Part shown: positions 4,768 through 64,000 of the stretch, piece by piece | How the letters are laid out: each line of letters begins with the position of its first letter | How positions within the stretch are numbered: the stretch's first letter is position 1 | Position numbers and translations under genes: made by a program | The notes under the pieces: model-generated | Told to the model about the DNA's origin: nothing | Database searches by the model: none | What the model saw: only the letters and a program-made list of their open reading frames with translations | Source of the DNA: a bacterium | GTDB taxonomy: Bacteria > UBP6 > UBA1177 > JAKLFG01 | DNA: 64,000 nucleotides | Direction of reading: 5' to 3' | NCBI GenBank assembly: GCA_022709425.1 | Contig: JAKLIW010000007.1 | Span: 99,465 to 163,464, forward strand

Positions 4768-6183
4768 CTACTGCCTCACACAACGGGCATAGTAGGTATC
4801 CGTCTTATTGAAGTTGATGATGGTCACATAGCCGTTATTGAAATCTACATACCATGCGTATTGGGTACTGCCCGTACTGGAAGAGGATGACCAGAAACTA
4901 TTCGACGCCATCTGCGGAAATGTGCTCGCGGGGCTGGAACTCGTATCATATATCAATGTTTTCAGTTCATTGATGTTCGGAAGGCGCCAATCGGTATAAC
5001 CACCATAGGTTAGGTTCTCGCAGTAACTGAGCGCACTCTGCCAGTTCAGAGAACTCGCGTATTCTTTTGTCCACTGGAAGCCCGTGACAGTGTCGGTCAC
5101 AATCACTTTGCCCGCTACCGTCGTCTCGGTGAAGGCGCTGTCGAGCAAAGATTCGCCCCTCACACACCGGGCATAGTAAATATTTGACTTATCATAGCCG
5201 TGCACATTGCCATCATTGGCCTTAACATGCCATGCGGCTCCGGCACTGTACGCAAGGGATGAGGAGGACCAGTATGAATCCGTCTGCGGGCCGGAAAATA
5301 TCGTGGCGTCTATCGCCGGACTGTATCTACCGTAATCGGGAAGTGTCGCCAACTCTTTGCGACTCGGCAAGCGCCAATCGGTGTAGCCGCCATAGGTAAG
5401 AGCACCGCAATAATCTATCGCTTGTTGCCATGTACATTTCGCGCCTGTCGGGGACCCGCCAGTGCACCCCGAATAGGTCGTCGGGAGCGTCCTCTGCCAT
5501 ATCAGCCCCGTCACATTATCGGTGACGACATCGTTGCCTGCTGTGCCGCTGACGGTGTAGCCACGCGGCGTACAGTAGTCGCCGAGCGTCGCATACTGCG
5601 CATCCTGACCGTAGAAGGCGTTGCCCTCAGCCGGGCAGGTCATCTCCGCCGTCGCATCGTAGCATTTCGTCTGCCCCGTGCACAGCACCGCCATCGTCGC
5701 GACGACATCATCATCGCTTACAAGGTCATCGTCGATGACGATGACCGCGTCGTCGGTCGGCGTCACATCGACCGCATCGTCGGTCGGGATAACGGAATCA
5801 TCAACATCCGACTGATCCGACGAATCGGTCGGATCGGACTGATCGTCGGCGACATCTTCGTCGGGTTCAATGATCGCATCATCAGCCGTTTCCAGCGTAT
5901 CATCGCTTTCAATGGTCGCATCATCGGTGACGGTCTCATCGGACAGGTCGGTCTGATCATCGGTTCCTTCATCGTCGCCGACCGCCATCTCATCGTCGCT
6001 CTCGCCGATGGCGTCGTCATCGGTCGACGGCATCACACACTTCCCCTCCACGCATTCATACGGCTCCTTGCAGGTATTGTCGAGATAGCAGGCATTCCCC
6101 TCCTTGCCCCGTTCCGTGAAGTTGAGCACATCGCAGGAAGCAAGCAGAAAGACCGTCAAAAGAAATAAAAGCATCTTTCTCAT
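4768..6183 (-). CDS. Lipoprotein with Asp-rich stalk and two DUF1566 domains
   Basis: Signal peptide with lipobox LLASC (Cys16), a short Cys-rich EGF-like segment (CYLDNTCKEPYECVEGKC), an Asp-rich linker of about 110 residues, then two copies of the DUF1566 (Lcl C-terminal-like) fold. Each copy carries GYTDWRLP, a Trp-Ser-Ser-Ser motif and ends YARCVR. The family is common in secreted proteins and its function is not established. The gene starts 1 bp after the stop of the upstream TolB-like gene, so the two are co-transcribed and the pair may work together at the envelope. Confidence 0.85.
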   Translation of the reverse strand: MRKMLLFLLTVFLLASCDVLNFTERGKEGNACYLDNTCKEPYECVEGKCVMPSTDDDAIGESDDEMAVGDDEGTDDQTDLSDETVTDDATIESDDTLETADDAIIEPDEDVADDQSDPTDSSDQSDVDDSVIPTDDAVDVTPTDDAVIVIDDDLVSDDDVVATMAVLCTGQTKCYDATAEMTCPAEGNAFYGQDAQYATLGDYCTPRGYTVSGTAGNDVVTDNVTGLIWQRTLPTTYSGCTGGSPTGAKCTWQQAIDYCGALTYGGYTDWRLPSRKELATLPDYGRYSPAIDATIFSGPQTDSYWSSSSLAYSAGAAWHVKANDGNVHGYDKSNIYYARCVRGESLLDSAFTETTVAGKVIVTDTVTGFQWTKEYASSLNWQSALSYCENLTYGGYTDWRLPNINELKTLIYDTSSSPASTFPQMASNSFWSSSSSTGSTQYAWYVDFNNGYVTIINFNKTDTYYARCVRQ

Positions 6184-6184
6184 A

Positions 6185-7111
6185 TCACCACCTCCCCGTG
6201 AGCGTCAGCATCGCGCCGCCCGGCAAAGGCATCACCGCCGCCTGTACCGGCCTTTCGGCCACAAGGTCCCATATCAGGAGCGCCGCCCCCGTCCCCAGCG
6301 CAAGGCCGCCGACCACATAAGACGCGATCATCGTGCCGCTCCACAGGTCGTAGGTGCTCCGGTCGCTGCCGGTTTTTCCCCAGTCGTAATCCTTTTTCGC
6401 CTCGCCGGTCTGCCAGTGGGCGACACCCGCCAGCGCCATCACGGCGCCGCCCCCCACCAGAAGACCGACCCCGCTCCAGCCGAGCGCGGTCAGTCCGCGC
6501 GACGGTGTCGGCGCTACGCTTTCCTCGACCATCGCGGGGGCCTGCGGCATCGCCCCCGGCGCCGTCCGCGGCGCCGCGGCAGCGGCGGGCGCCGAAGGTG
6601 CGGTCTGAGGCACCGCCGGGGCCGGCTTGGTGACGATCTTGTCGAACAGGTCTCCCACCGCCTGCGGGATCCCCTCGACCAACAGGTTGATATCGCCCTT
6701 CGCCTTGAACTCCGCCCGGCCCAATATCGTCGCATTGCGGACATTAAGCCGCTGAAGGTAGAGCATCCAGTAGTCGCCCAGTTTCGACAGCGTCCCTATC
6801 ACCGATTCGGGCGCCCCGAGCGCCGCGCCGATCTCGGCATAGCAGGCGGTATCGTCGGCACCGCAGGAAAGTTTCTTCTCCTCTCCCACCATGAGTGACT
6901 TCATCTCGGCCTCGCCGATCACCCGTTTCCCCGATATCTTCACCACCTCCATCGCGATTATCGCGCTGACCGCATTGGCATCCTTCTCGGTGACGCCTGT
7001 CTGCGGCTCGATGCGCCACACCACGATCGAATCGGCGTTATCGGCCGCCGCGACGGAGGAACAGGTGAAAGCGAAAAGTGCTAGAAAAAAAATCAGCGAA
7101 GGCTTACTCAT
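6185..7111 (-). CDS. TolB/CsgG-like periplasmic protein with C-terminal membrane anchor
   Basis: 308 residues: signal peptide (cleavage near AAA-DNA), an N-terminal alpha/beta domain of about 130 residues resembling TolB-N/CsgG/FlgO proteins, an Ala/Pro-rich linker, and two hydrophobic stretches near 210-230 and 255-280 that look like membrane helices. The domain has the pair SCGADDTACYAEIG followed by GAPESVIGTL. Two other proteins here (30982-34278 and 55509-57131) share this Cys-pair layout. Such domains are associated with envelope assembly and regulation; the exact role is unknown. First gene of an operon with the DUF1566 lipoprotein. The SD GAGG lies about 10 nt before the ATG. Confidence 0.75.
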   Translation of the reverse strand: MSKPSLIFFLALFAFTCSSVAAADNADSIVVWRIEPQTGVTEKDANAVSAIIAMEVVKISGKRVIGEAEMKSLMVGEEKKLSCGADDTACYAEIGAALGAPESVIGTLSKLGDYWMLYLQRLNVRNATILGRAEFKAKGDINLLVEGIPQAVGDLFDKIVTKPAPAVPQTAPSAPAAAAAPRTAPGAMPQAPAMVEESVAPTPSRGLTALGWSGVGLLVGGGAVMALAGVAHWQTGEAKKDYDWGKTGSDRSTYDLWSGTMIASYVVGGLALGTGAALLIWDLVAERPVQAAVMPLPGGAMLTLTGRW

Positions 7112-7166
7112 GGCTATTTTTCCTCATGCCTTGAATTTGCGCTTGGAGTAGCGGGGAACGCGATTA

Positions 7167-7645: not shown

Positions 7646-7646
7646 C

Positions 7647-7690
7647 TACAAGAACGATCAGTCGGTCAGCAGGACATCTTCGTCGGGCGC
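7647..7690. repeat. Direct repeat copy B (tail of lipoprotein gene)
   Basis: Partner of 7293-7336: 17 and 15 identical bases at the two ends with a diverged 12-bp centre. This copy forms the functional 3' end of the 8809 lipoprotein gene and its downstream bases. Confidence 0.75.
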
Positions 7691-8809
7691 TTCATAGCCC
7701 GGCTCTATGGTCGGATCGGGTTCGGTCATGAGGGTGCAGTAGGCGGGATAGTCGGCGGGCCAGTTCGTTGCGTAGGGAGATACCGTCGTGCCGCGCGGAT
7801 GATCGCGGAAGAACTGGAGCATCTGCTGTGAATTCAGCCCCGCATTGGTGTGACCCAGCGCATGTTCGCAGATGATGACGGTGTGCCCCATCTCGGTCAG
7901 GTAGTTCGCGTCGAACCGCGCCATGTGGTTGAAATTGATGTAAAACCCCGACCCTCCCCATTTGTCGCAATCGGTGGGACCGGTGCAGGCGGTGTCGCCC
8001 TCGGCGCCGTGCATCATCGCCTGCACATATTTATTCGTGACGGTCATCTCGGGCCACGTGATGAAGCCGGAGGCCATCGCGCCGAGATCGGCCTTCGCCT
8101 TCGCATCGCTGAAGTAGGCGCCCGAATAGGTGAATATCGAAGCGATCTGGTCGCCGCGCATCACACCGATGCTGTCGGCCGTTATCGACCCGGCCGAGAA
8201 CCCGGCAAGGTGGATATGCTCCTCATCGACTCCCCATTTCTCCTCGATGCAGGCAAGGATCGCGTCGAACAGCTCCACTTCGATCGAGCCGTTGCCGAGA
8301 TTGAGAATGTCCCAATCGACCCCGGAGGGAAGCGCAATGTCGGTATCTTCGGGGGTGACGAGTATGAAGGGCATCTCAGCGTTGTCCACAAAACCGGAGA
8401 GCAGCCCCTCGAAGTTCGCGGCGGTGTCGCCATAGCCATGGAAATTGAAAATGACCGGCCAACCCTTCTTGCTGTCGACGGTAGTCGGCAGGTTCAGAAG
8501 GAAGGTCCGCGTAAGATCCTTCGACTCGTCGCCGTTGACGATGAGGGTATTCTCGCCCTCCTTGAGACCGGCGCAACCCGGCACGACGGTATCGGTATCG
8601 GTCGCCGCATCACCTTCGACCAGCAGTTCGTCCTCATCGGCGCCGGACTGATCGGCATCAATCAGGGGCTGATCGGCATCGCCCATCACATCCGACTCGG
8701 TCTGTGTGTCGTCGGTAACCAGATCGTTGTCGGCGGTCGTTTTCTTGTTGTCGTCGCACGAAAGTGCGAAAACGCACATGAACAGCGCAAGCATACCCAA
8801 CTTCTTCAT
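7658..8809 (-). CDS. Lipoprotein esterase, PHB-depolymerase/feruloyl-esterase type
   Basis: 383 residues: lipobox ALSC (Cys18), an Asp-rich linker to about residue 80, then an alpha/beta-hydrolase of the Esterase_PHB/LpqC type. Visible are the oxyanion region FNFHGYGDT, the nucleophile motif GFSAGS near residue 200, and a C-terminal His candidate in CEHALGHTN. It likely hydrolyses esters of extracellular polymers; substrate unknown. The protein ends in a second acidic tail, YEAPDEDVLLTD. SD GGGAGG precedes the ATG and a near-consensus promoter lies at 8846-8873. Transcribed divergently from the beta-helix gene. Confidence 0.85.
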   Translation of the reverse strand: MKKLGMLALFMCVFALSCDDNKKTTADNDLVTDDTQTESDVMGDADQPLIDADQSGADEDELLVEGDAATDTDTVVPGCAGLKEGENTLIVNGDESKDLTRTFLLNLPTTVDSKKGWPVIFNFHGYGDTAANFEGLLSGFVDNAEMPFILVTPEDTDIALPSGVDWDILNLGNGSIEVELFDAILACIEEKWGVDEEHIHLAGFSAGSITADSIGVMRGDQIASIFTYSGAYFSDAKAKADLGAMASGFITWPEMTVTNKYVQAMMHGAEGDTACTGPTDCDKWGGSGFYINFNHMARFDANYLTEMGHTVIICEHALGHTNAGLNSQQMLQFFRDHPRGTTVSPYATNWPADYPAYCTLMTEPDPTIEPGYEAPDEDVLLTD

Positions 8810-8951: not shown

Positions 8952-10367
8952 ATGCCCGTCGCCACGAAAAACCGCCTTTTCCTTATTATCATAGCCGCCC
9001 TTTTCTTGCTCCTGTGTGCCTGCGCCGACGACCACAGCGCGTGGCGGCTTCCCGATGCCTGCAACGGTGACTGTCAGGTGGCGCGCGACGCCGCGACCTT
9101 TGCCGACGCCGTCGCCAACGCGACCGATGCGTGGAATGAGTGCATCTGCGTCGAGAACGCGACGATAACGGCCGCCGTGACCATCGTCAAACCGCTGACG
9201 CTCGTCGGCCGCGGCCCCGCGAGCCGTATCGTCGCCCCGGCGGGACAGAAAGGGCTTATCCTCCGCGCCGACGGCATCACCCTACGCGACATCGAGATAT
9301 CGTCCGATACGGTCGCCCTCGATGTGTCACAGGCACAGCGGGTAACGCTGGAGCGGGTCACCCTTCGGGCGCTTTCCCCGGCCGCCGACCACACGGCGTT
9401 CGCTCTGGCAATGAATGACACCGACCTGACGTTTGTCGACTCGACGCTCACCGGCGACCCCGCTACGGCGACCGCCGTGGGCGATATCTCGGGAGGGAAG
9501 GTCTTCTTTACCGCCGTCACGGCGACCGGATTCGGCGCTCAAGGACTTATCGTCACGGGCGGCGCGACGCTTTCGTGGACCGGCGGCGGAATGAGCGATA
9601 TCCGCACGGAGAACGCGGCGCTCTTCATCGACGACGCGACGGTCGAACTGAGCGATGTAGCCATAGAACAGATAACGACGCCGACAAGCGGGAACATTCT
9701 CTACGGCGGACGCGGCATCATCGCGACCGAGGGAACAACGCTCGATATTACTGACAGCGCGGTGCGCGACTGCTCATCGATCGGTCTCCTCATCGACGGG
9801 ACGGCGCGGGCGATCATCGCCGGGAGCGCCATCGCGGATAACGCGCTCACCGGCATCTGGGTTCAGAACGGCACGGCGGGCGCCGGGCATCTGACCATCT
9901 CCGATTCGACGATCACGGGGAATCGTGCCGCCGGCGTCGCGCTGTTCCGTTCCTGCGGTATCGACATCAGCGACACCCGCATCGAAAAGACCACCGCGAC
10001 CCTGTGGCATGATGACCTCATCGGCGACGGTCTGACCGCCTACGGGAATGAGTTGGCCGATAAGAACTGCCCGCTGAACCTCACCCGCGTCACCTTCGCC
10101 GACAATGTCCGGGCCGGCTTCATCGTCGACGGCGTCGAAGGGACAAGGCCGCTCGCCGGGATTTCATTCTCGGCGGTAAAGGTCGAACGTTCCGCCGCCG
10201 ATGCGCCGGGGAAGTACGGCGTCATCATTCAGAACGGCACCGCGCCCGCGGACCTGATGGCGGGGGTGACCGCCAATCCGTTCAGCGATGCCGATGCTGC
10301 GCTCGACACGCCACTGCCGCTCATGACCGAGGAACAGATAGTGAACGGAACAACATATCAACGATGA
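8952..10367 (+). CDS. Lipoprotein with right-handed parallel beta-helix
   Basis: 471 residues with lipobox LLCAC (Cys24) and no long Asp-rich linker, unusual for this window. The body is a series of roughly 22-residue turns (VTIVKPLTLVGRG, GITLRDIEIS, VTLERVTLRA, LDITDSAVRDCS, LTISDSTITGNRAAGV) typical of PbH1/NosD-like right-handed beta-helices, which often bind or cleave polysaccharides. No catalytic residues can be assigned, so binding or structural function is equally possible. SD GGAG precedes the ATG. It is followed within 13 bp by the Ala/Pro-rich protein and then the small acidic lipoprotein, so a three-gene operon is likely. Confidence 0.8.
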   Translation: MPVATKNRLFLIIIAALFLLLCACADDHSAWRLPDACNGDCQVARDAATFADAVANATDAWNECICVENATITAAVTIVKPLTLVGRGPASRIVAPAGQKGLILRADGITLRDIEISSDTVALDVSQAQRVTLERVTLRALSPAADHTAFALAMNDTDLTFVDSTLTGDPATATAVGDISGGKVFFTAVTATGFGAQGLIVTGGATLSWTGGGMSDIRTENAALFIDDATVELSDVAIEQITTPTSGNILYGGRGIIATEGTTLDITDSAVRDCSSIGLLIDGTARAIIAGSAIADNALTGIWVQNGTAGAGHLTISDSTITGNRAAGVALFRSCGIDISDTRIEKTTATLWHDDLIGDGLTAYGNELADKNCPLNLTRVTFADNVRAGFIVDGVEGTRPLAGISFSAVKVERSAADAPGKYGVIIQNGTAPADLMAGVTANPFSDADAALDTPLPLMTEEQIVNGTTYQR

Positions 10368-11128: not shown

Positions 11129-11362
11129 ATGAAAAACATACTGTTCTTCATTCTCGCCATATGTGCCTTTGCCGGATGTACCAAGGAGCCGGACATCATC
11201 AATATCGAAGAGGTGATGGAATCGGTGTTGGCCGAAATGGACTACTGGGGGACCGACGAGGATCTGCTCTTCAACGATGACGATGCGCTCCTCACCGAAG
11301 AGGACCCGACCGACGGCGACATCCTGCTGGATGAGGCCGACGACCTGCTGAGCGACGACTAG
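11129..11362 (+). CDS. Small stalk-only acidic lipoprotein
   Basis: 77 residues: lipobox FAGC (Cys16), a short helix-like segment (IINIEEVMESVLAEMDYW), then only the acidic stalk, with four acidic-x-Leu-Leu-type motifs (DEDLLF, DDALLTEE, DILLDE, DDLLSDD). There is no cargo domain, making it a minimal version of the stalk found on the larger lipoproteins. Strong SD GGGAGG. Its stop lies 3 bp from the convergent rubredoxin stop. Function unknown. Confidence 0.75.
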   Translation: MKNILFFILAICAFAGCTKEPDIINIEEVMESVLAEMDYWGTDEDLLFNDDDALLTEEDPTDGDILLDEADDLLSDD

Positions 11363-12746: not shown

Positions 12747-12758
12747 TGCATCACCCCT

Positions 12759-13271: not shown

Positions 13272-13282
13272 GGTATCCTCCG

Positions 13283-13666: not shown

Positions 13667-13676
13667 GGCATTCTCC

Positions 13677-13946: not shown

Positions 13947-13967
13947 GTGTTTCCTCCCGTTGTGATG

Positions 13968-14543: not shown

Positions 14544-14578
14544 GGTCTCCTCCACAGTAATGGTTGTTGTTCGATCCG

Positions 14579-17965: not shown

Positions 17966-19624
17966 ATGCGCAAGAAAAATGCGATGCGGTGGCTGTTGAT
18001 GATCATCTCTTCGGCGCTGGTCATGGCATGCGCCGTGGCTGAAGAAGACTGCCTCTGCGATGAAGGATTCACCTGCAACGAACTGGGTGAATGCGTGCCG
18101 ACGGGCGATCTGACCGACCAACCGGCGCTGAACGATGAGCAAAGCGATCAAACAATCGATGAAACGACCGACGATCCGGTCGACACCAACCTTCCCGAAG
18201 AAGACCCCTCCGATGTCACGCCGGTCGTTGATCAGGATCAACCGCTGCCCGACAACGGCCCGCAGGACACCACCGCGCCCACCATCCAGACCGTCACTCC
18301 GGGTGACGGCGCCACCGACATCCTGACCGACGCGAAGATAACGGTTTATTACTCGGAAGCGGTGCAAAAAGAATTGGCGATCTCGCCCGCGAATTTCAAA
18401 GTCGAGATCGACGGGGTCGCCGTCGAAGGGGTGCGCGAATACTTCGCCAGCAGTAACTTCTTCGCCCAGTTCACCCCGACCATTCCCTACACGGCGGGCA
18501 AAACGGTAACGGCGACCGTCACCACGGCGGTCAGGGATCTGGCCGGCAATGCTCTGGCGGAGGAAAAACAGTGGAGTTTCGCCGTCAAGGAGGACAAGGA
18601 GGCGCCCCTCATCAGCAAGGTCTATCCCGAAAAAGATAAGACCGGCGTCGCCCCCTCGACGACGATATCCATCACCTTTAACGAGCCGGTGCAGAACGTC
18701 GATACCGCATCGATATTCTTGATAGAGAACGGAGACACCTCCATTGAATATACCGCCACGCTCGGCGCCGACAACCGCACCGCGTATGTCGCTCCCGCCG
18801 CGACGTACAATGGCGGCAAGCTACTGGAGATGACCAGATATATGGTGAAGGTCAACAACAAGATCACCGATTTCTTCGGCAATGTCATTGATCTCGGCGC
18901 CGACGCGGTCGATGAAGGGAGCGGCGTTATGGCTCTGTCATGGGAATTCACCACCGGCTCCAATGTGTTGCTGTTCGAGGATTTCGAAAGTGCCGATGCG
19001 GCGACCAAGTGGACCGAGGCGAATATCAACAAACTGTTGAATGCCTCCGATCCCTTCCTGTACGATGATCCGCTCTGGGTCATCGGCACACCCGCGACTG
19101 AGGGCATAACGGTCGCCCAATCGGGATCGAAGGTCATGGCGACGCTCCCCACCGAGATGTTGCCCGACCAGTACAACCTCCGTAACGCGCTCTACTACAA
19201 AACACCGTTCATCATTCCCGACAGCGGCCTCGACATAGATTTCTACGCTTACGTCAACTGTCCGAAATATCCCAACGGCAGTTGGCGCGGCGGCATGATC
19301 GTGTACGGCTGCGAGGATACCAACTTCAAGAGCGGCGGCAAATGCAGTCATGTGCAAGGCGATGCGGCCAACACGGCGGTCATGGTCACCCTCACCTCCG
19401 ATCCGGTCGGTTACATCGACACCTTTACCGGTATGTACACCCTTGAGTTCAACAGCGCCGTCACCGGTGCGGCGCCCGATGACACCTATATCCACTTCAC
19501 CGGGTCCATAGGCCCCGAACACAAACAGAAATCACTCTACCTGATGTTTGAGTTCACCAAAGGCAACGATTCCAACACCGCCCCCGGCATCTATATCGAC
19601 GACCTAACGCTGCAAGGCAAGTAA
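17966..19624 (+). CDS. Lipoprotein with Asp-rich stalk and two Big_5 (bacterial Ig-like) domains
   Basis: 552 residues from ATG 17966 (SD GGAG). Lipobox VMAC (Cys22), an EGF-like CLCDEGFTCNELGEC segment, an acidic linker, then two Ig-like Big_5 domains: PTIQTVTPGDGATDI ... AEEKQWSFAV and PLISKVYPEKDKTGV ... SWEFTTG. The C-terminal 210 residues look like a beta-sandwich (LLFEDFESADAATKWTE ... GIYIDDLTLQGK), resembling ligand-binding or jelly-roll modules appended to secreted enzymes. The upstream frame from 17906 would start inside the promoter and is discarded. Likely surface adhesion or binding; no catalytic residues are evident. Confidence 0.8.
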   Translation: MRKKNAMRWLLMIISSALVMACAVAEEDCLCDEGFTCNELGECVPTGDLTDQPALNDEQSDQTIDETTDDPVDTNLPEEDPSDVTPVVDQDQPLPDNGPQDTTAPTIQTVTPGDGATDILTDAKITVYYSEAVQKELAISPANFKVEIDGVAVEGVREYFASSNFFAQFTPTIPYTAGKTVTATVTTAVRDLAGNALAEEKQWSFAVKEDKEAPLISKVYPEKDKTGVAPSTTISITFNEPVQNVDTASIFLIENGDTSIEYTATLGADNRTAYVAPAATYNGGKLLEMTRYMVKVNNKITDFFGNVIDLGADAVDEGSGVMALSWEFTTGSNVLLFEDFESADAATKWTEANINKLLNASDPFLYDDPLWVIGTPATEGITVAQSGSKVMATLPTEMLPDQYNLRNALYYKTPFIIPDSGLDIDFYAYVNCPKYPNGSWRGGMIVYGCEDTNFKSGGKCSHVQGDAANTAVMVTLTSDPVGYIDTFTGMYTLEFNSAVTGAAPDDTYIHFTGSIGPEHKQKSLYLMFEFTKGNDSNTAPGIYIDDLTLQGK

Positions 19625-19955: not shown

Positions 19956-21005
19956 ATGAAAATGTTATCTGCGTTATTTTGTGCACTGCTGCTTCTGACG
20001 GCGTGCGACGGGACAAAAAGCAACAACAACGACACCGACGCGATGAATGATGAGACGACGGCCGACACGACGACACCCGACACCACAATCACCGACGATG
20101 CGGCGACCGACGACCCGATCACCGACGATCCGCTGCCCGACAACGACGCGGCGGCGACGGGCGGCATGGTGATAGACCACACCATGACCGATCCTTCAGC
20201 CATTCCAGACCTATGGATGATCGCGGCAAAAAACAACCTTCACATCGCCTATCAGCACACCTCGCACGGCAGTCAACTGATCTCCGGGATGAACGCGCTG
20301 ATGGCGCACGCCCCCTTCGGCACGATCTACCAGTGGAGCGACGACGGATCGGTGGGCCTTGACCTCGACGACTACGGCATACCGGGCGACGCGAGCGACC
20401 TGTCGACGGGCGATTCGGAGGATGAGAACGGCGACACGCCGTGGGCGATCCAGACCCGGACGCTGCTCGATGACCCGAACAACTATCACATCAATGTCAT
20501 CCTCTGGTCGTGGTGTTCGATAAACGGCCACAACGCCCAGCGCTATGTCGATAATATGGAAAAGCTCATCGCCGAATACGGCCCCGGCGGCACCAACGCC
20601 CGCGCGGCGGCCCATCCGGTGACCTTCGTGTTCATGACGGGACACTCTGAGGGAACCGGCGAGGATATGGCCGAGAACGGCATCCACTATAACAATACCC
20701 TCATCCGCCAGCACTGCGCCCAACATGAGCGGATACTGTTCGACTTCGCCGATATCGAGGCGCACGATCCCGACGGGAACTACTACTGGGATCAGAATAT
20801 GTACGATAATCTCGCCTACGACGGCGGGAACTGGGCGACCGAGTGGATCGCCGACAATCCCGATTCGGAGCTCGCGACGCTGACCGATCTCTGTACCGAA
20901 TGCGCCCATTCCGACGATCCGGCGCAGGCGAAGCTCAACTGCGTGCTGAAAGGACGCGCGGCGTGGTGGCTCTTCGCCCGTATCGCCGGCTGGGACGGAC
21001 AGTAA
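19956..21005 (+). CDS. Asp-stalked lipoprotein with uncharacterised SGNH-like catalytic-looking domain
   Basis: 349 residues: lipobox LTAC (Cys17), Asp/Thr-rich stalk to about residue 68, then a domain of about 280 residues. Conserved-looking motifs are IAYQHTSHGSQLI, VILWSWCSING, VTFVFMTGHSEGTG, HERILFDFADIEAHD and a C-terminal pair CTECAHSD. The order (His/Ser-Gly cluster, then GH, then DxxxH) recalls SGNH-type hydrolases, but I cannot assign a catalytic triad. SD GGGAGGG. Convergent with the next gene, 9 bp apart. Confidence 0.6.
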   Translation: MKMLSALFCALLLLTACDGTKSNNNDTDAMNDETTADTTTPDTTITDDAATDDPITDDPLPDNDAAATGGMVIDHTMTDPSAIPDLWMIAAKNNLHIAYQHTSHGSQLISGMNALMAHAPFGTIYQWSDDGSVGLDLDDYGIPGDASDLSTGDSEDENGDTPWAIQTRTLLDDPNNYHINVILWSWCSINGHNAQRYVDNMEKLIAEYGPGGTNARAAAHPVTFVFMTGHSEGTGEDMAENGIHYNNTLIRQHCAQHERILFDFADIEAHDPDGNYYWDQNMYDNLAYDGGNWATEWIADNPDSELATLTDLCTECAHSDDPAQAKLNCVLKGRAAWWLFARIAGWDGQ

Positions 21006-28966: not shown

Positions 28967-28997
28967 GGGAACCTCGTCAAACCGTTTCGATGAGAGC

Positions 28998-30954: not shown

Positions 30955-30981
30955 GGTTTCCTCCATTCTGTGGTTGCCGGG

Positions 30982-48723: not shown

Positions 48724-48763
48724 GGCATCCCCCATGCAATGAGTTTCTCAAAACGAACGGTCG

Positions 48764-48879: not shown

Positions 48880-50862
48880 ATGAAGATCGCTCTTTTCTGT
48901 TCGCTCTCCGTTTTTATCTTGTCAATAGTCGCCTGCGGGAATGCCGACAAAGAAACTCCCCCGCAGGACAGCGACGAACTTCTTTCCGACGGCGACGCCC
49001 TTCCCGCGCCGGTCTGTCTGACACCCGGGGATGGCCCCTATCCGCTCGTGTTCACTGATGTTACCGATGAAATAGGCTTCAGCGAAGAGGGACTGGTGGT
49101 CGCCGGTTCAACCATCACCACCGCCGATATCAATAACGACGGATGGCCCGACCTCTATATATCTAAAGGAGGGAAGACCCGCGAGAACTCCGAACTGCCG
49201 ACCGGCCTCTACCGGTTACTCCTCAACAACAAGGGGACCGGCTTTACCGAGGTCACTTGGACATCGGGCCTTTTCAAGACCCGTGAAGGCGAAGAGGGTC
49301 GCGTCTCCTCGTTCGTCATCTGGGGCGACGTCAACAACGATGGATTCGTCGATGCCTTCAACACCGCCTACCTCGACTCCGACACCGAAGATACCGGCGA
49401 CCGTAGCTCTCTGTTCCTCGGCAAAGGCGACGGCACCTTCACCATCGCTCCTCACCATCAATTCTTCGCCGTCTATCTCGATCCGCTCGCCGGCGCATCA
49501 TTCCTCGATTACGACCGTGACGGAAAACTCGATCTGTTCGCCGGCCATCACTACGGCACATACGGCTATCCCGAGAACGCTGAGATGGATACCCTGCACC
49601 GCGGCGGCGGTAACGGAAAGTTCACCAACGTGACCAAAGAGACGGGCCTCGCCACCCTCAAGCCGACCGAAGAAACCATTAAAGCAGGGACAAATCATAA
49701 ACCGACGTGGGGTGTCACCGCCTGCGATGTCGACGGCGACGGTTGGCAGGACCTCATGACCACCACCTACGGCCGCGGCTTCAATATGTTCTGGCGCAAC
49801 ATGGGGGGCACCTTCGAAGATCTTTCGCTCTCCTCCAAGTTCGCCGAGGACGAGAATCTCGACTATGCGGACGACCAGTGGTTCCTCTGCTACTGTAAAA
49901 GCCACACCGACGCGGGCGACTACTGCGCCGATGCCGCGAACCCCTCGATAACCTGCACCGGACTTGAAGATGCGTGGGAACCGGGCTACAGCGACCATCC
50001 TGCACGCCTCGGCGGCAACAGCTCCGGCACCGTTTGTGCCGATATCGACAACGACGGCGACCTCGACCTGCTCGGCGTCGAACTCGCCCACTGGCATATC
50101 GGTCAGGCTAGCGATAAGACCGAGCTCCTGCGCAACGACGGTTTTCCCGCGAAACCATTCACCCGTCCCGGCCGCGAGGCGACCGGCATCCTTCGGACCC
50201 ATATCTCCGGGTGGAACGAAGGCGATCTCGGCGCACTGGCGGGCGACCTCGACAACGACGGCCGCATCGATCTTTATGTATTGAGTTCAGATTATCCCGG
50301 CACCTATGCCCTTCTGTACCAACAACAGGATGACGGAACTTTTAAGGAAGTGGGGAAAGATACCGGTACTCGTGTCATCCGTTCACACGGGGCCACCCTC
50401 ATCGACTACGACCGCGACGGCGACTATGATTTGGTCGTCGGTTCGTCGCTGATGCGCTGGAGCGCCACCGATATCCCCCCGGCGCCGACCCAACCGTGGG
50501 TGAAAGTGCTCCGCAACGATACCGGCCAGAACGCCAACCGCTTCCTGTTCTCTCTAGAGGGTTCGGGAAAAAGCGACGGCGCCAACCGGATGGCCATCGG
50601 CGCGCGCATTACCATAAAAGCGGGCGGAAAGACATTTGTCCATGAAGTTCAAGGGGGTTACGGGCTCTTTGGCTTCCAGAACGACCCGCTGGTAATTATC
50701 GGCGCGGGTGACGCCTGTATCGCTGAAGAGATCAAGGTCCGCTGGCCCAATAAGACAGGAAATATAAGTATATTCAAAGATGTATCAGCGAATCAAGTTC
50801 TCAAGATACACGAAGAGAACGGGGTGACCACCCAGACCTTGGAAGAATTCGCCGCTCGCTGA
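48880..50862 (+). CDS. Lipoprotein with FG-GAP repeats and C-terminal ASPIC/UnbV domain
   Basis: 660 residues. Lipobox IVAC (Cys19) with a short stalk (DSDELLSDGD), then FG-GAP/VCBS blades with Asp loops (DINNDGWPDLY, DVNNDGFVDAF, DYDRDGKLDLF, DVDGDGWQDLM, DIDNDGDLDLL, DLDNDGRIDLY, DYDRDGDYDLV). The C-terminal ASPIC/UnbV domain has ANRMAIGARITI and EEIKVRWPNKTG. This architecture is that of CRTAC1/ASPIC-like secreted proteins; function is likely ligand or matrix binding. The open frame runs far upstream antisense to the giant lipoprotein, but the promoter, SD GGGAGG and lipobox fix the start at 48880. Confidence 0.88.
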   Translation: MKIALFCSLSVFILSIVACGNADKETPPQDSDELLSDGDALPAPVCLTPGDGPYPLVFTDVTDEIGFSEEGLVVAGSTITTADINNDGWPDLYISKGGKTRENSELPTGLYRLLLNNKGTGFTEVTWTSGLFKTREGEEGRVSSFVIWGDVNNDGFVDAFNTAYLDSDTEDTGDRSSLFLGKGDGTFTIAPHHQFFAVYLDPLAGASFLDYDRDGKLDLFAGHHYGTYGYPENAEMDTLHRGGGNGKFTNVTKETGLATLKPTEETIKAGTNHKPTWGVTACDVDGDGWQDLMTTTYGRGFNMFWRNMGGTFEDLSLSSKFAEDENLDYADDQWFLCYCKSHTDAGDYCADAANPSITCTGLEDAWEPGYSDHPARLGGNSSGTVCADIDNDGDLDLLGVELAHWHIGQASDKTELLRNDGFPAKPFTRPGREATGILRTHISGWNEGDLGALAGDLDNDGRIDLYVLSSDYPGTYALLYQQQDDGTFKEVGKDTGTRVIRSHGATLIDYDRDGDYDLVVGSSLMRWSATDIPPAPTQPWVKVLRNDTGQNANRFLFSLEGSGKSDGANRMAIGARITIKAGGKTFVHEVQGGYGLFGFQNDPLVIIGAGDACIAEEIKVRWPNKTGNISIFKDVSANQVLKIHEENGVTTQTLEEFAAR

Positions 50863-51720: not shown

Positions 51721-52863
51721 ATGAAAAAGACATTTTCGGTATTTTTCGTTGTCTTGTTGTTCCTTGCCGCCTGTGACGAGGGCTCTTTCCAAAAGCCGGG
51801 ACCCGACAACGGGATCGCAGACAAGGACCAGATCGGCGGCAACGACGACCCGCTGAACGACGACGACCTTTTCCCGAGCGACGACGGTCAGATCATCACC
51901 GACGATGACGGAATCATCACCGACGACGGTCAGATTGTCACCGACGACGACGGAACCATCACCGACGAAACGAAGCCCGATAGCGATCTCCCGACGGGCG
52001 AGTGCGCAGTCAACAAAGATTGCGAGACCGATTTCTGCCAGAAAGCGACAGGAGCTTGCAAGGAAGGAACCGGTTCATGCGCGGCGCGTCCCGAAGGGTG
52101 CCCCGAGCTCTATGCGCCGGTCTGCGGCTGTGACGAGGTTACCTACGATAACGAATGCATGGCCCACGCCTACGGGGTGAATGTGCTCCACGAAGGCGAA
52201 TGCGACTCGGCGCCCTCCTGCACGACCGATCAGGAATGCGGTGATTTCGTGGCGATGCTCTGCCAGAAGGCAACCGGCGTCTGTGAGAATGGCGCCGGCA
52301 CGTGCGTGATACCGGAGACCGGTTGCGACATGATGTACGCCCCGGTCTGCGGCTGCGACGGCAACACCTACGGCAACGAGTGCGAAGCGCACGCCAACTT
52401 CATGAATGTCGCCTACGAAGGCGAATGCGGCGGCGAGACGAAATACTCCACGATCTCTTACTATTACGATGCGAGCACCGACGAACCGCCGATGGCCTCG
52501 GCAGTCATCCTCAACGGCGATGAAACGGTCACTTTCGAAGGGGCCGACCTCATGACGCGAACGCCCTTCGACGGCGGCGTAACGATCACCACCACCTTCT
52601 ACGGACCCGACGGCGGCGGGGTCATCAACCTTCAGTTGACGCTCTACAGCAACGGCTTTTCGCTCCCCTACACCGTGACACTCGACGGCGCCGAGAACTT
52701 CGCCCAGTGGACCAATTTCTCCGGCGGCGGACCGACCCAACTGCTCGGCGATCTGAATGGCGAAGTGACGATATCGCAGTACCAGAAGAACAATAGCGGA
52801 ACGGTCGTTCTTGTCGAACTTGCAGGAAATCAATTGACTTTTATTCCATTACCGCCACAATGA
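51721..52863 (+). CDS. Asp-stalked lipoprotein with two Kazal domains
   Basis: 380 residues. Lipobox LAAC (Cys18), acidic stalk with repeated DDGQIxTDDDG, two Kazal-type units (CPELYAPVCGCDEVTYDNEC and CDMMYAPVCGCDGNTYGNEC, each with two flanking Cys), then a 130-residue C-terminal domain starting STISYYYDASTDEPP. Kazal domains inhibit serine proteases by a canonical loop or act as structural modules. The C-terminal domain is shared with the next gene and otherwise unrecognised. SD GGGAG before ATG 51721. The two genes are tandem paralogues. Confidence 0.85.
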   Translation: MKKTFSVFFVVLLFLAACDEGSFQKPGPDNGIADKDQIGGNDDPLNDDDLFPSDDGQIITDDDGIITDDGQIVTDDDGTITDETKPDSDLPTGECAVNKDCETDFCQKATGACKEGTGSCAARPEGCPELYAPVCGCDEVTYDNECMAHAYGVNVLHEGECDSAPSCTTDQECGDFVAMLCQKATGVCENGAGTCVIPETGCDMMYAPVCGCDGNTYGNECEAHANFMNVAYEGECGGETKYSTISYYYDASTDEPPMASAVILNGDETVTFEGADLMTRTPFDGGVTITTTFYGPDGGGVINLQLTLYSNGFSLPYTVTLDGAENFAQWTNFSGGGPTQLLGDLNGEVTISQYQKNNSGTVVLVELAGNQLTFIPLPPQ

Positions 52864-52895: not shown

Positions 52896-53978
52896 ATGTT
52901 CAGACTAGTGTCGGTGTTTTGTCTTTTAGCTTTCCTGATCGCCTGCGACGAAGGCGCGACCATCAAAAAGTTTGGTCCCGACATGAACACAGCGGACCAA
53001 GACCTGATCGCCGGCGGCGATGAGGATGAACTCACCGGGGATGAACCGTTGAGCGACGACGGTCAACTCATCAACGACGATGGTCCGTTCGTCAACGATG
53101 ACGGACAGATCGTGTATGACGACGGCGAAATCGTTCCCGATGATAACGAATGGACCGACGACGGTACGGTGTGGCCCGACGACCACGAGTGGACCGATGA
53201 CGGCACCGTCTGGCCCGATGACAACGAGTGGACCGACGACGGCACCGTCTGGCCCGATGACGGCCCGATACCGCACGATGACGGCGTCATCGGCCCCGAT
53301 CAGGATTGGACCGACGATGTGAAACCCGACAGTGACGCGGTCCCCACCTACTGCGGTGCGAACTTCGACTGTGGCGATACCGAATACTGCGCCAAGGACA
53401 CCTGTGATCCCATGGCGGTCGGCCAGTGCGCCACGAAGCCCGAGATGTGTCCGCCGCTCTATTCGCCGGTCTGCGGTTGCGACGGCACCACCTACGGCAG
53501 TGAATGTGACGCGCAGGCGGCCGGAGAGAATGTCGACTATGCGGGCGAATGCGGCGGCGAGGAGAAATTCTCGACGCTGTATTACTATTACGATCAAGCC
53601 ACCATGAGCGCGCCCGAAGCGAAGATCGTCATCATCAACGGCGAGGATACGGTCGAGTTCATCGGAGCCGACCTCATGACCCGCTCCACCTCCGGCTTCA
53701 CGACGATCTATCTGGATACCAAGTTCTACGGCCTGACCGACGACGGCAGTCAGATCGAATTCCATCTTAAGGTCTCCAGCATTGGATGGTCGATCCCGAA
53801 GACCGTAACGCTCGACGGCGGCGACAATTACGCCCGCTGGACACGGCTCGGGCCCGAAATGGTGGGCGAACTCTACGGCGAGGTGACGATACAGCAGTAT
53901 GACCGCGAAGACACCGTCATCACCCTCATCGAGATAAACGGCGACGCGCTGACATTCACGCCCGTCCCCGTCCCGTAG
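52896..53978 (+). CDS. Asp-stalked lipoprotein with one Kazal domain (paralogue of 51721 gene)
   Basis: 360 residues. Lipobox LIAC (Cys17), a longer acidic stalk containing three exact-to-near copies of a 13-residue unit (EWTDDGTVWPDDx), one Kazal domain (CPPLYSPVCGCDGTTYGSEC), and the same C-terminal domain as its neighbour (STLYYYYDQATMSAPE ... LIEINGDALTFTP). The stalk and Kazal count differ between the two copies while the ends match, suggesting duplication followed by module change. SD GGAGG; start ATG 52896. Confidence 0.85.
   Translation: MFRLVSVFCLLAFLIACDEGATIKKFGPDMNTADQDLIAGGDEDELTGDEPLSDDGQLINDDGPFVNDDGQIVYDDGEIVPDDNEWTDDGTVWPDDHEWTDDGTVWPDDNEWTDDGTVWPDDGPIPHDDGVIGPDQDWTDDVKPDSDAVPTYCGANFDCGDTEYCAKDTCDPMAVGQCATKPEMCPPLYSPVCGCDGTTYGSECDAQAAGENVDYAGECGGEEKFSTLYYYYDQATMSAPEAKIVIINGEDTVEFIGADLMTRSTSGFTTIYLDTKFYGLTDDGSQIEFHLKVSSIGWSIPKTVTLDGGDNYARWTRLGPEMVGELYGEVTIQQYDREDTVITLIEINGDALTFTPVPVP
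53148..53264 (+). repeat. Three tandem 39-bp units in the stalk
   Basis: Units at 53148-53186, 53187-53225 and 53226-53264, in frame, each encoding EWTDDGTVWPDD plus His, Asn or Gly. Differences are mostly silent (GACGAC/GATGAC). Confidence 0.9.
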
Positions 53979-54000: not shown

Positions 54001-55365
54001 CTAGAATACCCACCCCATACGATAGGGCACCGTGCGGATATCGAGTTCGCCGGGACGCCATGACTGCATGACCGGCGCGGCGGGACAGCTCTTGTCGTTC
54101 AGATACGCGAGGGCGGCGGCGAGCGACTCTTCCAGCGGATCGCCGAAATCGTGCGTCACATCATCGGCGGCGGCGCAATCGGCCGGCAGGCCGTCGTAGT
54201 AATCACCGTATCCCTCTGAGTTCGCGAGCTTGAAGGTGATGGGGACCAGCGTATAGTCGCAGTGCTCCATCGGATTCATCCCGACCGGTTTGCCGTAGGT
54301 GGTATCGCCGATGATGGCGACCTCGATGTATGACTTGAGTCCGTTGATGACCACTTCGCTGGCCGACGCGGTGCCGCCGGTCGCAATAAAAACGACTTTC
54401 TGGAGACCGAGGCTCTGGCTGTGATCCTTGAAGTTGTAATCGCTGTTGTAGTCCTGATGTTTGTCGTTATAGGTAAGCCGCGTGAAGAGCTTATCCTTGA
54501 GTTCGCCGCCGGTGATGAGGCTCGCGAGATGCTCCGAACCGTTCAGCAGGCCGCCGCCGTTGTAACGCAGATCGACCACCAGTTCGGTCACTCCGTCGGC
54601 CTTGAACTTGGTGAAGGCCGCGTCTAGTTCTCCGTTGGTCGAGTTGATGAACGACTTGAGCATGAGATAGCCGACCTTTTTCTCGCCCGCATCGAGGGTC
54701 GCCGTTTTGAGTATCGACGGGGTGGTCACATCGTCGGCATAGAGCGTAAGCGTCTTCTGTTCCCCGTTCTCTTCAACGACATATTCTATAGGTATCTCCT
54801 TTTCGTCCTCCGGGCGCGAGGTGACCGAGCCCCAGAGGTTCTGGTCCTCTATCTCCTGTACCGTCTTGCCGTCTATCGCAACGATACGCTGGCCGCGCCG
54901 CATGCCGCCTTCGTCGGCGGGACTGCCGGGATAGACCATCGTCACATAGACCACATAGTCGGGCAGTTTACGGAACGAGAAGCCGAATCCGTAATATTTG
55001 CCGCTGTAGTAATTGTCGTGATCCTCTTTCTTGGAGATATAACTGAAATGATCGGCATCGGGATATTTCAGCGTGTTCAGGAAATCGCCGGGTTCGGCAA
55101 AACCGCGAAAGTCGATGTCGGTGGCCAGATGATCGTACCACAGATACATATCCCACATCGTGTCGAGGATCCACAGGTTCACCTCTTCGACCGAACAGGC
55201 GTCGAGCGACGGTTTCTTTTCGGGTATCCCGGCCGCGTTCGCGGTCCAGTCGTACCCGTTCCCTTTGCCGTAATATGAATCGCCCCCCCAGACCGCGCTC
55301 TCCTCTTCGCACGCCGCAATGAACGCCACCGCTACAGCAATAAATATCCCGATGAACCACCGCAT
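54001..55365 (-). CDS. Lipoprotein S41-family (tail-specific/CtpA-like) protease with PDZ domain
   Basis: 454 residues from ATG 55365 (SD GGGAGG). Lipobox IAAC (Cys19), no acidic stalk. N-terminal helical cap, a PDZ domain (VVYVTMVYPGSPADEGGMRRGQ), then the S41 core: LVVDLRYNGGG near 270 and ATGGTASASEVVINGL near 340, which carries the catalytic Ser. Cleaves C-terminal tails of envelope proteins in known relatives; outer-membrane or periplasmic location expected from the lipid anchor. Divergent from the CsgG-FGE gene. Confidence 0.88.
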   Translation of the reverse strand: MRWFIGIFIAVAVAFIAACEEESAVWGGDSYYGKGNGYDWTANAAGIPEKKPSLDACSVEEVNLWILDTMWDMYLWYDHLATDIDFRGFAEPGDFLNTLKYPDADHFSYISKKEDHDNYYSGKYYGFGFSFRKLPDYVVYVTMVYPGSPADEGGMRRGQRIVAIDGKTVQEIEDQNLWGSVTSRPEDEKEIPIEYVVEENGEQKTLTLYADDVTTPSILKTATLDAGEKKVGYLMLKSFINSTNGELDAAFTKFKADGVTELVVDLRYNGGGLLNGSEHLASLITGGELKDKLFTRLTYNDKHQDYNSDYNFKDHSQSLGLQKVVFIATGGTASASEVVINGLKSYIEVAIIGDTTYGKPVGMNPMEHCDYTLVPITFKLANSEGYGDYYDGLPADCAAADDVTHDFGDPLEESLAAALAYLNDKSCPAAPVMQSWRPGELDIRTVPYRMGWVF

Positions 55366-61999: not shown

Positions 62000-62461
62000 T
62001 TATTTCGGCGCGGGTCTCACGCCGTCGATGTACTTGATCGCCTCGGCCGCCGCCTTGAACGGGGTGTCGGCACTGATGACGGCGATGATCTCCTCATTCC
62101 CCTTGATCCCCGGTTTAAGCAGATAAATGCTGGTGAGCAGGGACATCAGTTTGCGGTGCGCCTTTATCTGAAGACCGGGGTTGTCGTAGGTGATCGATTC
62201 GCCGGTGTCGATGATACACTCCACTCCGCGCGGCGACAGAAGGGCCGTGAGTTCGTTCACCGCATCCTTCTCATCCTGCGAATTGACCGTCTCGGTGTAA
62301 AGATACACCTTGGCAAGACCGCTGAAATCCCACGCGGCATCGCGGACGTCGATAACGATGTCCTTCTGCATCGATATCCCCGGTTTTCGGTCGTGACTTG
62401 CGCAGGCGACGCAGAACAGCACCAGAAGGCATAGTATCCCGGCGATAGCAGATCGGTTCAT
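62000..62461 (-). CDS. Small lipoprotein of unknown function
   Basis: 153 residues. Lipobox CVAC (Cys20), no acidic stalk. The body is a compact alpha/beta-looking domain (MQKDIVIDVRDAAWDFSGLAKVYLY ... EEIIAVISADTPFKAAAEAIKYI). No family recognised. Strong SD GGGAGG and a near-consensus promoter just upstream. Monocistronic. Confidence 0.7.
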   Translation of the reverse strand: MNRSAIAGILCLLVLFCVACASHDRKPGISMQKDIVIDVRDAAWDFSGLAKVYLYTETVNSQDEKDAVNELTALLSPRGVECIIDTGESITYDNPGLQIKAHRKLMSLLTSIYLLKPGIKGNEEIIAVISADTPFKAAAEAIKYIDGVRPAPK

Positions 62462-62522: not shown

Positions 62523-62547
62523 TGCAAAAAACCTTTCTTTTTTCCTA

Positions 62548-62575
62548 TTGATTTCTGAAAAACACCCACTATAAT
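62548..62575 (+). promoter_or_regulatory. Promoter of VWA lipoprotein
   Basis: TTGATT (62548-62553), 16-bp spacer, TATAAT (62570-62575). Confidence 0.7.
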
Positions 62576-62626
62576 CGCTTTTGTATGTGTGACAATAGAC
62601 CGCAAAAACTATATTTGGAGGCTTCC

Positions 62627-64000
62627 ATGATGCGCCCTTTCTGTATCCTCGCGACCGGCATGTTTCTTTTTCTCGCCGCCTGCTCGACCGACGGCGACAA
62701 CGGGGATCCATACATCGGCCCCGGCGAGTTCTGTTCGGGTGACGGCCTGATCTGTTCGTCGGATGGCGATGATCTGCTGAAGTGCGTGGGTGGAACGCTC
62801 ACCCTGTTTGAGGACTGCGCGGCGGCGAACAAGGATTGTAAAAATAATGCCTGTGTGGAGCGCGCTGGCGAAGGAGACGATTGTACCGGCACCGCCTCCA
62901 TCTGCTCCGGCGACAAGATACTTTCTTGTCAGGAAGGCAAGTATGTAGAAACCTTCGACTGCACGACGCAGAACAAGGATTGCAAAGAGGAGGACGGCGC
63001 GGCGGTCTGCACCGATAAGATAGCGCCAACCGACAACACCCCCCAGCCCGACGATACGACCGACGCCGTCACCGACGATCCGGGCAGCGACGGCGAACTG
63101 GTCGATGAAACGACCGGTCCCGACACCGACTGGGGCGAGATCGACCCGAAAGGCGACGAGGACGGCGACGGCATTCCCAACGAGGTCGAAGGACAGGATG
63201 ATCGCGATCATGACGGCATCCCCAACTTCTTGGACGGGGATTCGGATTCCGATGGACTGGGAGATGCCGAAGAATGCCCGACTCAGCCATGCCAGAATAG
63301 CGACATGGACGAAACCCCCGACTTTTTGGATAAGGATTCGGACAACGACGGTCTGGCCGATGTCGATGAGATCGCTATCGGCACCGACCCCTACGACAAG
63401 GATTCCGATGACGACAACTCGGACGATCTGGCCGAGATCGTCTACGGTTCCAACCCGAAAGATCCGAACGACACCATCCCGGCGGGACTCTTCTTCGTGG
63501 TGCTTCCCTACGGCGCCCCCGAGGATGTGACGCGCAACCTGATGTTCTCGACCGACTTCTCGACGGTCGATATCGCCGTCCTGCTCGACATGTCGGGATC
63601 GATGGATCAGGAGATGGCGAACCTGAAGGAAGAGATAAAGACCAAGATCATACAGGGCATCCCGCAAAAGGTGCCGGGACTCGATGTGGCGACCGGCTTC
63701 GCGCATTTCATGGATATGGAGAACGGCAAGCTTTTCGTCGTTGATCACATGGTCACCGCCAACGGCGACGATGTGCAGACCGCCGTGAACAACCTGCCCG
63801 AAACCTATGGCGGCACCGAACCGCATCAGGAGGTGCTCTATCAGGCGGCGACCGGCGAAGGACTGATGACTCAATATTACACCGACCCCATCGGCATGTT
63901 CGCCTCTAATATCAACATACCCCCGGCCGATTGCACGGGTCAATTGGGAACGGTAGGCGGACTCTGCTTCCGCGAACTGGCGCTCAAGATATTCATCATG
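62627..64000 (+). CDS. Asp-stalked lipoprotein with TSP3-like repeats and VWA domain (C-terminus cut by window edge)
   Basis: 458 codons present with no stop. Lipobox LAAC (Cys19), two Cys-rich knots (CSGDGLICSSDGDDLLKC ... CSGDKILSC), an acidic linker, then calcium-binding thrombospondin type-3-like repeats (DEDGDGIPNEVEG, DRDHDGIPNFLDG, DSDSDGLGDAEEC, DKDSDNDGLADVDE, DKDSDDDNSDDLAE). A von Willebrand A domain follows, starting near residue 300 with the MIDAS motif DMSGSMD. VWA domains bind protein ligands through a metal. The first of two adjacent ATGs, 5 nt after GGAGG, is chosen. Confidence 0.85.
   Translation, partial: MMRPFCILATGMFLFLAACSTDGDNGDPYIGPGEFCSGDGLICSSDGDDLLKCVGGTLTLFEDCAAANKDCKNNACVERAGEGDDCTGTASICSGDKILSCQEGKYVETFDCTTQNKDCKEEDGAAVCTDKIAPTDNTPQPDDTTDAVTDDPGSDGELVDETTGPDTDWGEIDPKGDEDGDGIPNEVEGQDDRDHDGIPNFLDGDSDSDGLGDAEECPTQPCQNSDMDETPDFLDKDSDNDGLADVDEIAIGTDPYDKDSDDDNSDDLAEIVYGSNPKDPNDTIPAGLFFVVLPYGAPEDVTRNLMFSTDFSTVDIAVLLDMSGSMDQEMANLKEEIKTKIIQGIPQKVPGLDVATGFAHFMDMENGKLFVVDHMVTANGDDVQTAVNNLPETYGGTEPHQEVLYQAATGEGLMTQYYTDPIGMFASNINIPPADCTGQLGTVGGLCFRELALKIFIM

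Follow-up and report, generated by a model that had tools for sequence, protein, structure and literature searches.

In the window, the final 64 kb of contig C67 (one of 75 in a 3.01-Mb draft genome from a bacterium of the UBP6 lineage), most proteins with a lipobox carry a long Asp-rich stretch, the stalk, after the Cys that is predicted to be lipidated; elsewhere in the same genome, a similar stretch lies ahead of a short Gly-Cys motif at the C-terminus of proteins with an ordinary signal peptide. We think it probable that the stalk is a disordered spacer beside a predicted lipid-anchor Cys at either end of the protein, which would keep unrelated cargo at a distance from the outer surface; the lipidation, cleavage and surface location of the stalked and motif-bearing proteins are predictions from sequence. 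What would be new here is the tail-less C-terminal signal and the use of one stalk at both protein ends. If the reading is right, N- and C-terminal lipid anchors share a single kind of spacer, and the stalk would mark the surface-displayed proteins of the lineage.

Asp-rich stalks beside the lipobox

Enrichment was assessed in a genome sample made up of the first 20 kb of each contig and 20 other stretches, from which 50 of 95 stretches, of at least 2 kb each, were retained (902,646 bp, about 30% of the genome; the 45 shorter ones were left out) and yielded 753 genes with a simple home-made gene caller. With an Asp-rich stretch defined as 60 residues containing at least 20% Asp, such stretches occur in 50/109 proteins of the lipobox class (assigned by a home-made regular expression), 15/148 with another N-terminal hydrophobic segment (the signal-peptide class), 10/477 with no export signal, and 1/19 cut by the end of a stretch. 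When only complete C-termini are counted, the figures are 49/105 for lipobox and 10/463 for no-signal proteins (Fisher p ~3e-31); the sequence-only reading, which had held that equal frequencies in lipoproteins and cytoplasmic proteins would speak against it, is thus not refuted. By eye, four of the 10 no-signal cases resemble lipobox or C-terminal-motif proteins missed by the script, and three resemble spurious reading frames. In the sample lipoproteins, stretches of Glu, Pro, Asn, Gln or Lys show no Asp-like enrichment; Thr stretches are enriched more weakly than Asp (20/109 versus 6/477 no-signal proteins) and Ser stretches slightly (6/109 versus 5/477). The richest Asp window begins no more than 150 residues from the Cys in 45 of the 50 stalked sample lipoproteins.

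The composition is distinctive: in 61 cleaned stalks, 29% of the residues are Asp, versus 6% in the no-signal class, while Glu makes up 7% in both, and Lys plus Arg 3% versus 12%. Across 67 Asp-rich segments (the FG-GAP case described below and five deep ones included), DDD is rarer than in shuffled sequence (49 versus 128), while TDD (113 versus 51) and VTD (57 versus 13) are commoner; the stalk is therefore not poly-Asp. On a charge/hydropathy plot, 64 of these 67 segments fall in the disordered region, compared with 33 of 352 control blocks. Four lipoprotein pairs from two genomes of the genus show stalk identities of 23/33, 28/48, 20/39 and 34/43 and cargo identities of 402/477, 302/348, 142/151 and 154/170; the stalk turns over faster than the cargo, yet it is kept in all four pairs. 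A stretch that is predicted to be disordered and whose letters turn over while its place is kept is spacer-like, which speaks against a precise signal. Its job would be to provide reach and mobility next to the anchor, at either end; being acidic and poor in Lys and Arg, it may stay extended and soluble and avoid contact with the membrane.

The same data bear on a reading in which a surface flippase would recognize the Asp-rich stretch as an export address, like the acidic signal of Bacteroidota; we regard this as rather unlikely. Acidic residues at +2/+3 are commoner in stalked (0.36/0.26) than in unstalked (0.17/0.08) lipoproteins, and an acidic signal, lying after the lipidated Cys as the stalk does, drives lipoprotein surface export in Capnocytophaga (Lauber 2016, PMC5080379). 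However, that signal, as the available part of the paper describes it, is a few residues of Asp or Glu in a set place near +3, whereas the stalk runs from tens to more than 100 residues, draws on Asp without enrichment of Glu, begins at positions ranging from 1 to 136 (Cys = 1), has K/R at +3 in 8% of the 50 stalked lipoproteins, and stands at C-termini too. The sorting tag proposed in the sequence-only reading is, with so variable a start, weakly supported. A fixed motif of the lipoprotein-export-signal type, C-X-K-(D/E)2, was tried and rejected on the same +3 and start figures.

The Asp content might instead point to a binder of calcium or other metals, or to a contact surface for minerals or polysaccharides, with reach secondary; we would give this proposal little weight. 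The enrichment of Asp and not Glu fits it; so does the finding that, of 49 stalked proteins, 2 have thrombospondin type 3 (TSP3) repeats and 4 have MopE metal-binding motifs. On the other hand, the 35 DxDxDG-like sites are confined to 8 of the 61 stalks, the chief unit is TDD/VTD with DDD depleted, and repeats of Gly, Asn, Thr and Pro stand in for the stalk in relatives; the esterase orthologues have (GDTGNT)n or (DPT)n where Asp units stand here. Least probable of all, in our view, is that the stalk is functionless filler produced by minisatellite slippage and tolerated beside anchors. Arrays of 15, 21, 30 or 42 bp do underlie several of the window stalks, and the rapid turnover would suit neutrality; yet independent genes have arrived at a similar composition at both protein ends with Asp preferred over Glu, and the stalk is rare in no-signal proteins and retained in every orthologue pair. 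We also considered D[ST][AILMVT], an O-glycosylation motif in Bacteroides, and rejected it: its count in stalks (128 versus 95 in shuffles) is too weak, and the repeats confound it.

Within the window, lipobox proteins were picked by regular expression and by eye, and every one was read. The sequence-only reading had counted 21 of them, 18 stalked, and this is borne out, as 16 Asp-rich stalks plus two short ones. By script, 17 of the 21 have an Asp-rich stretch after the Cys, but the protein at 48880 does so only through its FG-GAP repeats, leaving 16 true stalks; its own stalk (~25 residues, by eye) and that of the 40411 protein (17% Asp) are the short ones. The three proteins named as stalk-free contrasts indeed lack any Asp-rich stretch. 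The length of about 130 residues given for the 26726 protein comes to 115 by our boundary rule, and the window maximum is 145, at 62.6 kb; the boundaries are set by threshold, and some run into an adjoining module.

5707..6015, minus strand: stalk of the Lcl_C lipoprotein 4768-6183, behind a small Cys-rich module
8579..8758, minus strand: stalk of the Abhydrolase_2-type esterase lipoprotein 7658-8809
8952..10367, plus strand: contrast, beta-helix lipoprotein without stalk
11180..11359, plus strand: stalk of the small, 77-aa lipoprotein 11129-11362, with next to no cargo
18089..18268, plus strand: stalk of the Big_5 (Ig-like) lipoprotein 17966-19624
20031..20210, plus strand: stalk of the lipoprotein 19956-21005, with 15/30-bp repeat arrays at 20076-20142
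21756..21995, minus strand: stalk of the Cys-rich lipoprotein 21015-22052
23662..23841, minus strand: stalk of the CGNG-repeat lipoprotein 22312-23895
26283..26627, minus strand: stalk of the HEFQH-bearing lipoprotein 23910-26726 (M30 in the sequence-only reading; no Pfam match to E 0.01)
28466..28705, minus strand: stalk of the lipoprotein 27722-28999
37496..37675, plus strand: stalk of the FG-GAP lipoprotein 37436-39049; the segment extends into a CGNG module, and the orthologue was compared
39173..39370, plus strand: stalk of the chlorophyllase-type esterase lipoprotein 39113-40369; the segment extends into a CGNG module
40465..40644, plus strand: short stalk (17% Asp) of the lipoprotein 40411-41040
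42269..42463, plus strand: stalk of the CGNG-repeat lipoprotein 42221-42919, a repeat array
48262..48630, minus strand: stalk of the lamin-tail-domain lipoprotein 44218-48735, with 15/21/30/42/45-bp repeat arrays
48937..49011, plus strand: short stalk, by eye, of the FG-GAP/UnbV lipoprotein 48880-50862; the script's Asp-rich window is the FG-GAP repeats
51802..51987, plus strand: stalk of the double-Kazal lipoprotein 51721-52863, with a 42-bp repeat (91% match)
52995..53336, plus strand: stalk of the Kazal lipoprotein 52896-53978, with a 39-bp repeat
54001..55365, minus strand: contrast, S41 peptidase lipoprotein without stalk
62000..62461, minus strand: contrast, small lipoprotein without stalk
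62993..63427, plus strand: stalk region of the lipoprotein 62627-64000 (VWA-type in the sequence-only reading), DxDxDG-like repeats included; the contig end cuts the protein

The lipoprotein at 11129-11362 is almost all stalk and has no Pfam cargo. Away from the stalks, genes at 11538-14555 resemble by eye those for a flavodiiron protein, ferritin, desulfoferrodoxin and rubrerythrin, which suggests an anaerobe, and the 83-aa Lys/Ala-rich protein encoded at 30715-30966 looks histone-H1-like, its coding DNA being a 12-bp repeat array.

That stalks carry unrelated cargo is confirmed by Pfam (Lcl_C, Abhydrolase_2, Chlorophyllase, Big_5, FG-GAP, Kazal and lamin-tail domain, LTD); most of the earlier cargo labels stand, with the exceptions of M30, which has no match at E 0.01, and EGF-like, which is below its cut-off. 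Among the families listed (25 of 28) for 49 stalked sample lipoproteins are MopE (4), SBBP (3), C-type lectin (3), arylsulfotransferase (2), Big_5 (2), Lcl_C (2), TSP3 (2), M28, lipase, amidohydrolase and EGF, and many of these proteins have no Pfam match at all; the deiminase in this set is L107:10946 (L-numbers denote loci of the genome sample), a C-motif protein. For 56 unstalked lipoproteins, the families listed (25 of 50) include LRR, Kelch, Sel1, TPR, SPOR/DPBB, FKBP, HlyD-type, ApbE and S49, and the set also holds membrane proteins wrongly taken as lipoproteins by the regular expression. Among the families listed, stalked cargo thus appears mostly surface-type and unstalked cargo mixed with periplasm-type families, a tendency and not a rule. 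Of the roles suggested in the sequence-only reading, extension of cargo from the surface fits best with this surface-type cargo, the surface location being itself predicted. Among other lipobox proteins of the sample, five similar small genes stand in tandem at L117:9768-11875 (CATMKN or CATMRN after the lipobox), and similar proteins of 71-77 aa with CTGCD after the lipobox recur at L010:517, L097:43, L099:8526, L103:1728 and L103:2637.

A short Gly-Cys motif at C-termini

Most Asp-rich proteins of the signal-peptide class have the stretch near the C-terminus, followed at the very end by a short Cys motif without a transmembrane helix (GCGCSLI, SGCSLTVI, GGCSIVI, GCGCSVIF and GGCALVTL are examples). 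The earlier description of the stalk as shared by lipoproteins was therefore correct but too narrow. One regular expression finds the motif in 14 of 141 signal-peptide proteins with complete ends, 3/105 lipobox, 1/19 cut and 4/463 no-signal proteins (signal-peptide versus no-signal, p 1e-6), and an Asp-rich stretch accompanies it in 9 of those 14, versus 5 of the 127 signal-peptide proteins without the motif (p 7e-8). L005:9634 and L107:5017, two of the 14, are chance-like, as are the lipobox matches L103:2637 and L114:5359; the remaining lipobox match, L107:10946, is a peptidyl-arginine-deiminase homologue that reads as having a normal signal peptide, the Cys lying within the core of that peptide. 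The sample contains no clear protein with both N- and C-terminal anchors, and the motif was not found among the listed window proteins.

Removing the two chance-like matches and adding four proteins that the script had put in other classes gives a set of 16 motif proteins from this genome. Twelve have an N-terminal signal peptide by class; of the others, one is truncated at the 5' end, one begins at the edge of a stretch, one was called from a wrong start and one fell into the lipobox class. Pfam, run on 10 of the 16, identifies S8 peptidases (three), trypsin, C25, M14, DUF11 and one M4-type protein (propeptide motif present, M4 match below cut-off), with two proteins unmatched. After the last Cys come three residues in 2 proteins, four in 6, five in 7 and six in 1. 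When 19 tails from family f2 of the same phylum (families f1 to f4) are added, the stop follows 3-7 residues past the Cys in all 35, the residues being mostly uncharged and hydrophobic (one f2 tail has a terminal pair of Arg), and Gly precedes the last Cys in 14/16 of our own and 19/19 of the f2 tails.

Distribution and candidate machinery

DNA patterns were compared across 61 genomes, 28 of them from the phylum. The pattern TDDxxTDD has 28, 26, 45, 1 and 46 matches in the five f1 genomes (the single match being in a 65%-complete genome), 0-2 in f2/f3, none in f4, and none elsewhere apart from one array of 5; its reversed control gives 0-3 per genome and 5 in all. GCGCS followed by two hydrophobic residues and stop or Trp yields 17 matches, confined to one f2 genome and the five of f1, with none in the 55 others and none reversed; every one of them is C-terminal, and almost all follow an acidic stretch. 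An SGC[SA] tail pattern gives 3-8 matches per genome in 20 f2/f3 genomes and no reversed match there, whereas the other 41 genomes together hold 28 (0-3 each) versus 16 reversed. Since the stalk pattern is nearly confined to f1 and the motif extends over f1-f3, the TDD-type stalk is, on these patterns, an f1 trait and the tail-less Cys motif one of the whole order. S8 homologues, compared at one best locus per genome with intact ends (those of f1 genome G003 and f3 genome G006 are cut off), end in the motif without a helix in 4 f1 and 19 f2 genomes, and in Cys, helix and basic residues in 3 f4 genomes; a further f4 protein, adjoining an S8 gene, also has the Cys-helix-basic ending, and a distant homologue from outside the phylum lacks the motif.

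One gene close to myxosortases, the CPBP-family proteases with an Rce1-like fold that act on MYXO-CTERM proteins, is present in 27 of the 28 phylum genomes. Its product has the Rce1 fold and the catalytic EExxxR, FxxxH and HxxxN; when Foldseek's own list for it is realigned with VIA-align, SpdC and Rce1 come out far above the rest, and a PDB sequence search with it returned no match. Against the Mrt_core model (NF040914), scores are 78-87 bits in f1-f3 and 93-104 in f4, with one f4 match over the cut-off. A GCGCSVVW gene lies no more than 3 kb from this Mrt-like gene in G001 and G004 (G-numbers denote the genomes compared), but not in G000, which has a weaker second CPBP gene ~2 kb from a GCGCSLVM gene; in G004 a second nearby gene ends CACSVVW. 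These arrangements are no more than suggestive of an operon link with a target, because C-motif genes are common. All 28 phylum genomes have at least three Lgt-family matches, and a type II secretion GspD is encoded in G000 (452 bits, G000:C10:24367-26196) and exceeds the cut-off in 25 of 29 genomes. Separately, G000:C12 (L213:2967-6725, minus strand) encodes a 1,252-aa protein with an N-terminal Lgt-like domain and a C-terminus that reads as AraC-type DNA-binding, and similarly long frames with an Lgt match occur in G001, G002 and G004.

We propose that, in the N-terminal class, the usual Lgt/LspA route would lipidate the lipobox Cys. In the C-terminal class, a protein processed by signal peptidase I would retain its C-terminal Cys, an Lgt-family enzyme would lipidate it, and the myxosortase-like CPBP protease would then trim the tail of 3-6 residues, so that the protein would be held by a C-terminal anchor; both classes would cross the outer membrane through the type II secretion system.

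It is also conceivable, though unlikely, that the Gly-Cys motif is not lipidated and has nothing to do with MYXO-CTERM, and that it instead forms a disulfide or directs soluble enzymes to type II secretion. With no helix after the Cys, the sequence forces no membrane step, none of the scanned proteins matches the MYXO-CTERM model, and the CPBP neighbourhood forms no clear operon with a target. Lipidation is favored by the GCGC signature, as in MYXO-CTERM, by the Cys-helix-basic ends of the f4 homologues, by the single Mrt-like gene per genome together with extra Lgt-family genes, and by the short, mostly uncharged hydrophobic tail.

Several observations weigh against the spacer-and-anchor reading. 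Asp occupies +2 in 8 of the 21 window lipoproteins, and in E. coli Asp at +2 is an inner-membrane retention signal; in some lipoproteins (4768, for example) a Cys-rich module separates the Cys from the stalk; the richest Asp window lies more than 150 residues from the Cys in 5 of 50; and one stalked lipoprotein, among the families listed, carries an OmpA domain, suggesting the periplasm. The lipobox expression admits false positives (ABC-3, RnfD and MCP, in the unstalked set) as well as misses. At the other end, 5 of the 14 signal-peptide motif proteins lack an Asp-rich stretch (the two chance-like ones among them), and 5/127 are Asp-rich without the motif, including L016:17967, lipobox-like with its Asp-rich part C-terminal and no terminal Cys. 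Stalk and motif can also part, the TDD pattern being rare in f2/f3 and the f2 S8 homologues having the C-motif mostly without a stalk. As to the machinery, the Mrt-like gene reaches 84.2 bits, under the curated 100-bit Mrt_core cut-off, four unrelated genomes have a match in the same range, Foldseek alone gives no match at E 0.001, and the MYXO-CTERM model (TIGR03901) matches none of the 13 own and 4 f4 proteins scanned.

Comparison with known systems

Low-complexity disordered linkers between a lipidated Cys and a folded domain are a feature of surface lipoproteins, the Borrelia Osp tethers being one example and the disorder involved in Lol sorting another; such tethers resemble the stalk but are shorter and are not known to consist of Asp/Thr repeats, and we know of no lipoprotein tether that also precedes a C-terminal anchor. 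Among the papers listed from a mainly open-access literature, no title or abstract opening deals with a tail-less Cys motif or with such an Asp stalk, and Synerg-CTERM brought up no paper.

The closest counterpart of the C-terminal motif is the MYXO-CTERM/myxosortase (MrtX) system (Guo, Haft, Wall 2025, PMC11980579). As the available portion of that report presents it, the two have in common a signal peptide, an invariant Cys in a Gly-Cys/GCGC signature, surface-type enzymes and an Mrt-clade CPBP protease; type II secretion is the demonstrated carrier there, as the GspD gene would allow here, and a disordered region adjoins the tag in MYXO-CTERM proteins too. They differ in that f1 and f2 proteins lack the helix and basic cluster, a layout seen only in f4, and stop 3-7 residues past the Cys, in that the protease here falls below the Mrt_core cut-off, and in that the Asp-rich stalk is special to f1. 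The best reading of the motif is a tail-less variant of MYXO-CTERM, nearly CaaX-sized; it may work like MYXO-CTERM without being a member by definition, having no helix, basic end or model match. In MYXO-CTERM proteins the helix is able by itself to retain the protein in the membrane, and by our reasoning this makes the contribution of the presumed Cys lipid hard to separate; no C-terminal helix is present here, so that any membrane retention by that end would have to depend on the Cys. The extra Lgt-family genes are candidates for the acyltransferase of the MYXO-CTERM Cys, which Guo et al., in the portion available, call unidentified (PMC11980579).

The CaaX box and Rce1 (4cad), as far as the accessible description goes, share with this system a Cys, a few mostly uncharged residues and a stop, as well as an Rce1-fold CPBP protease with its catalytic residues; in contrast to CaaX proteins, those described here have export signals, and exactly three residues follow the Cys in just 2 of our 16 tails. 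Tentatively, and with the chances against it, we suggest that the order may have an extracytoplasmic CaaX-like box, in which an Lgt-family paralogue would lipidate the C-terminal Cys of exported proteins and a myxosortase-like protease of Rce1 fold would trim their 3-6 residue tail; at no stage would there be a C-terminal transmembrane helix, and N- and C-terminal anchors would share an Asp-rich spacer.

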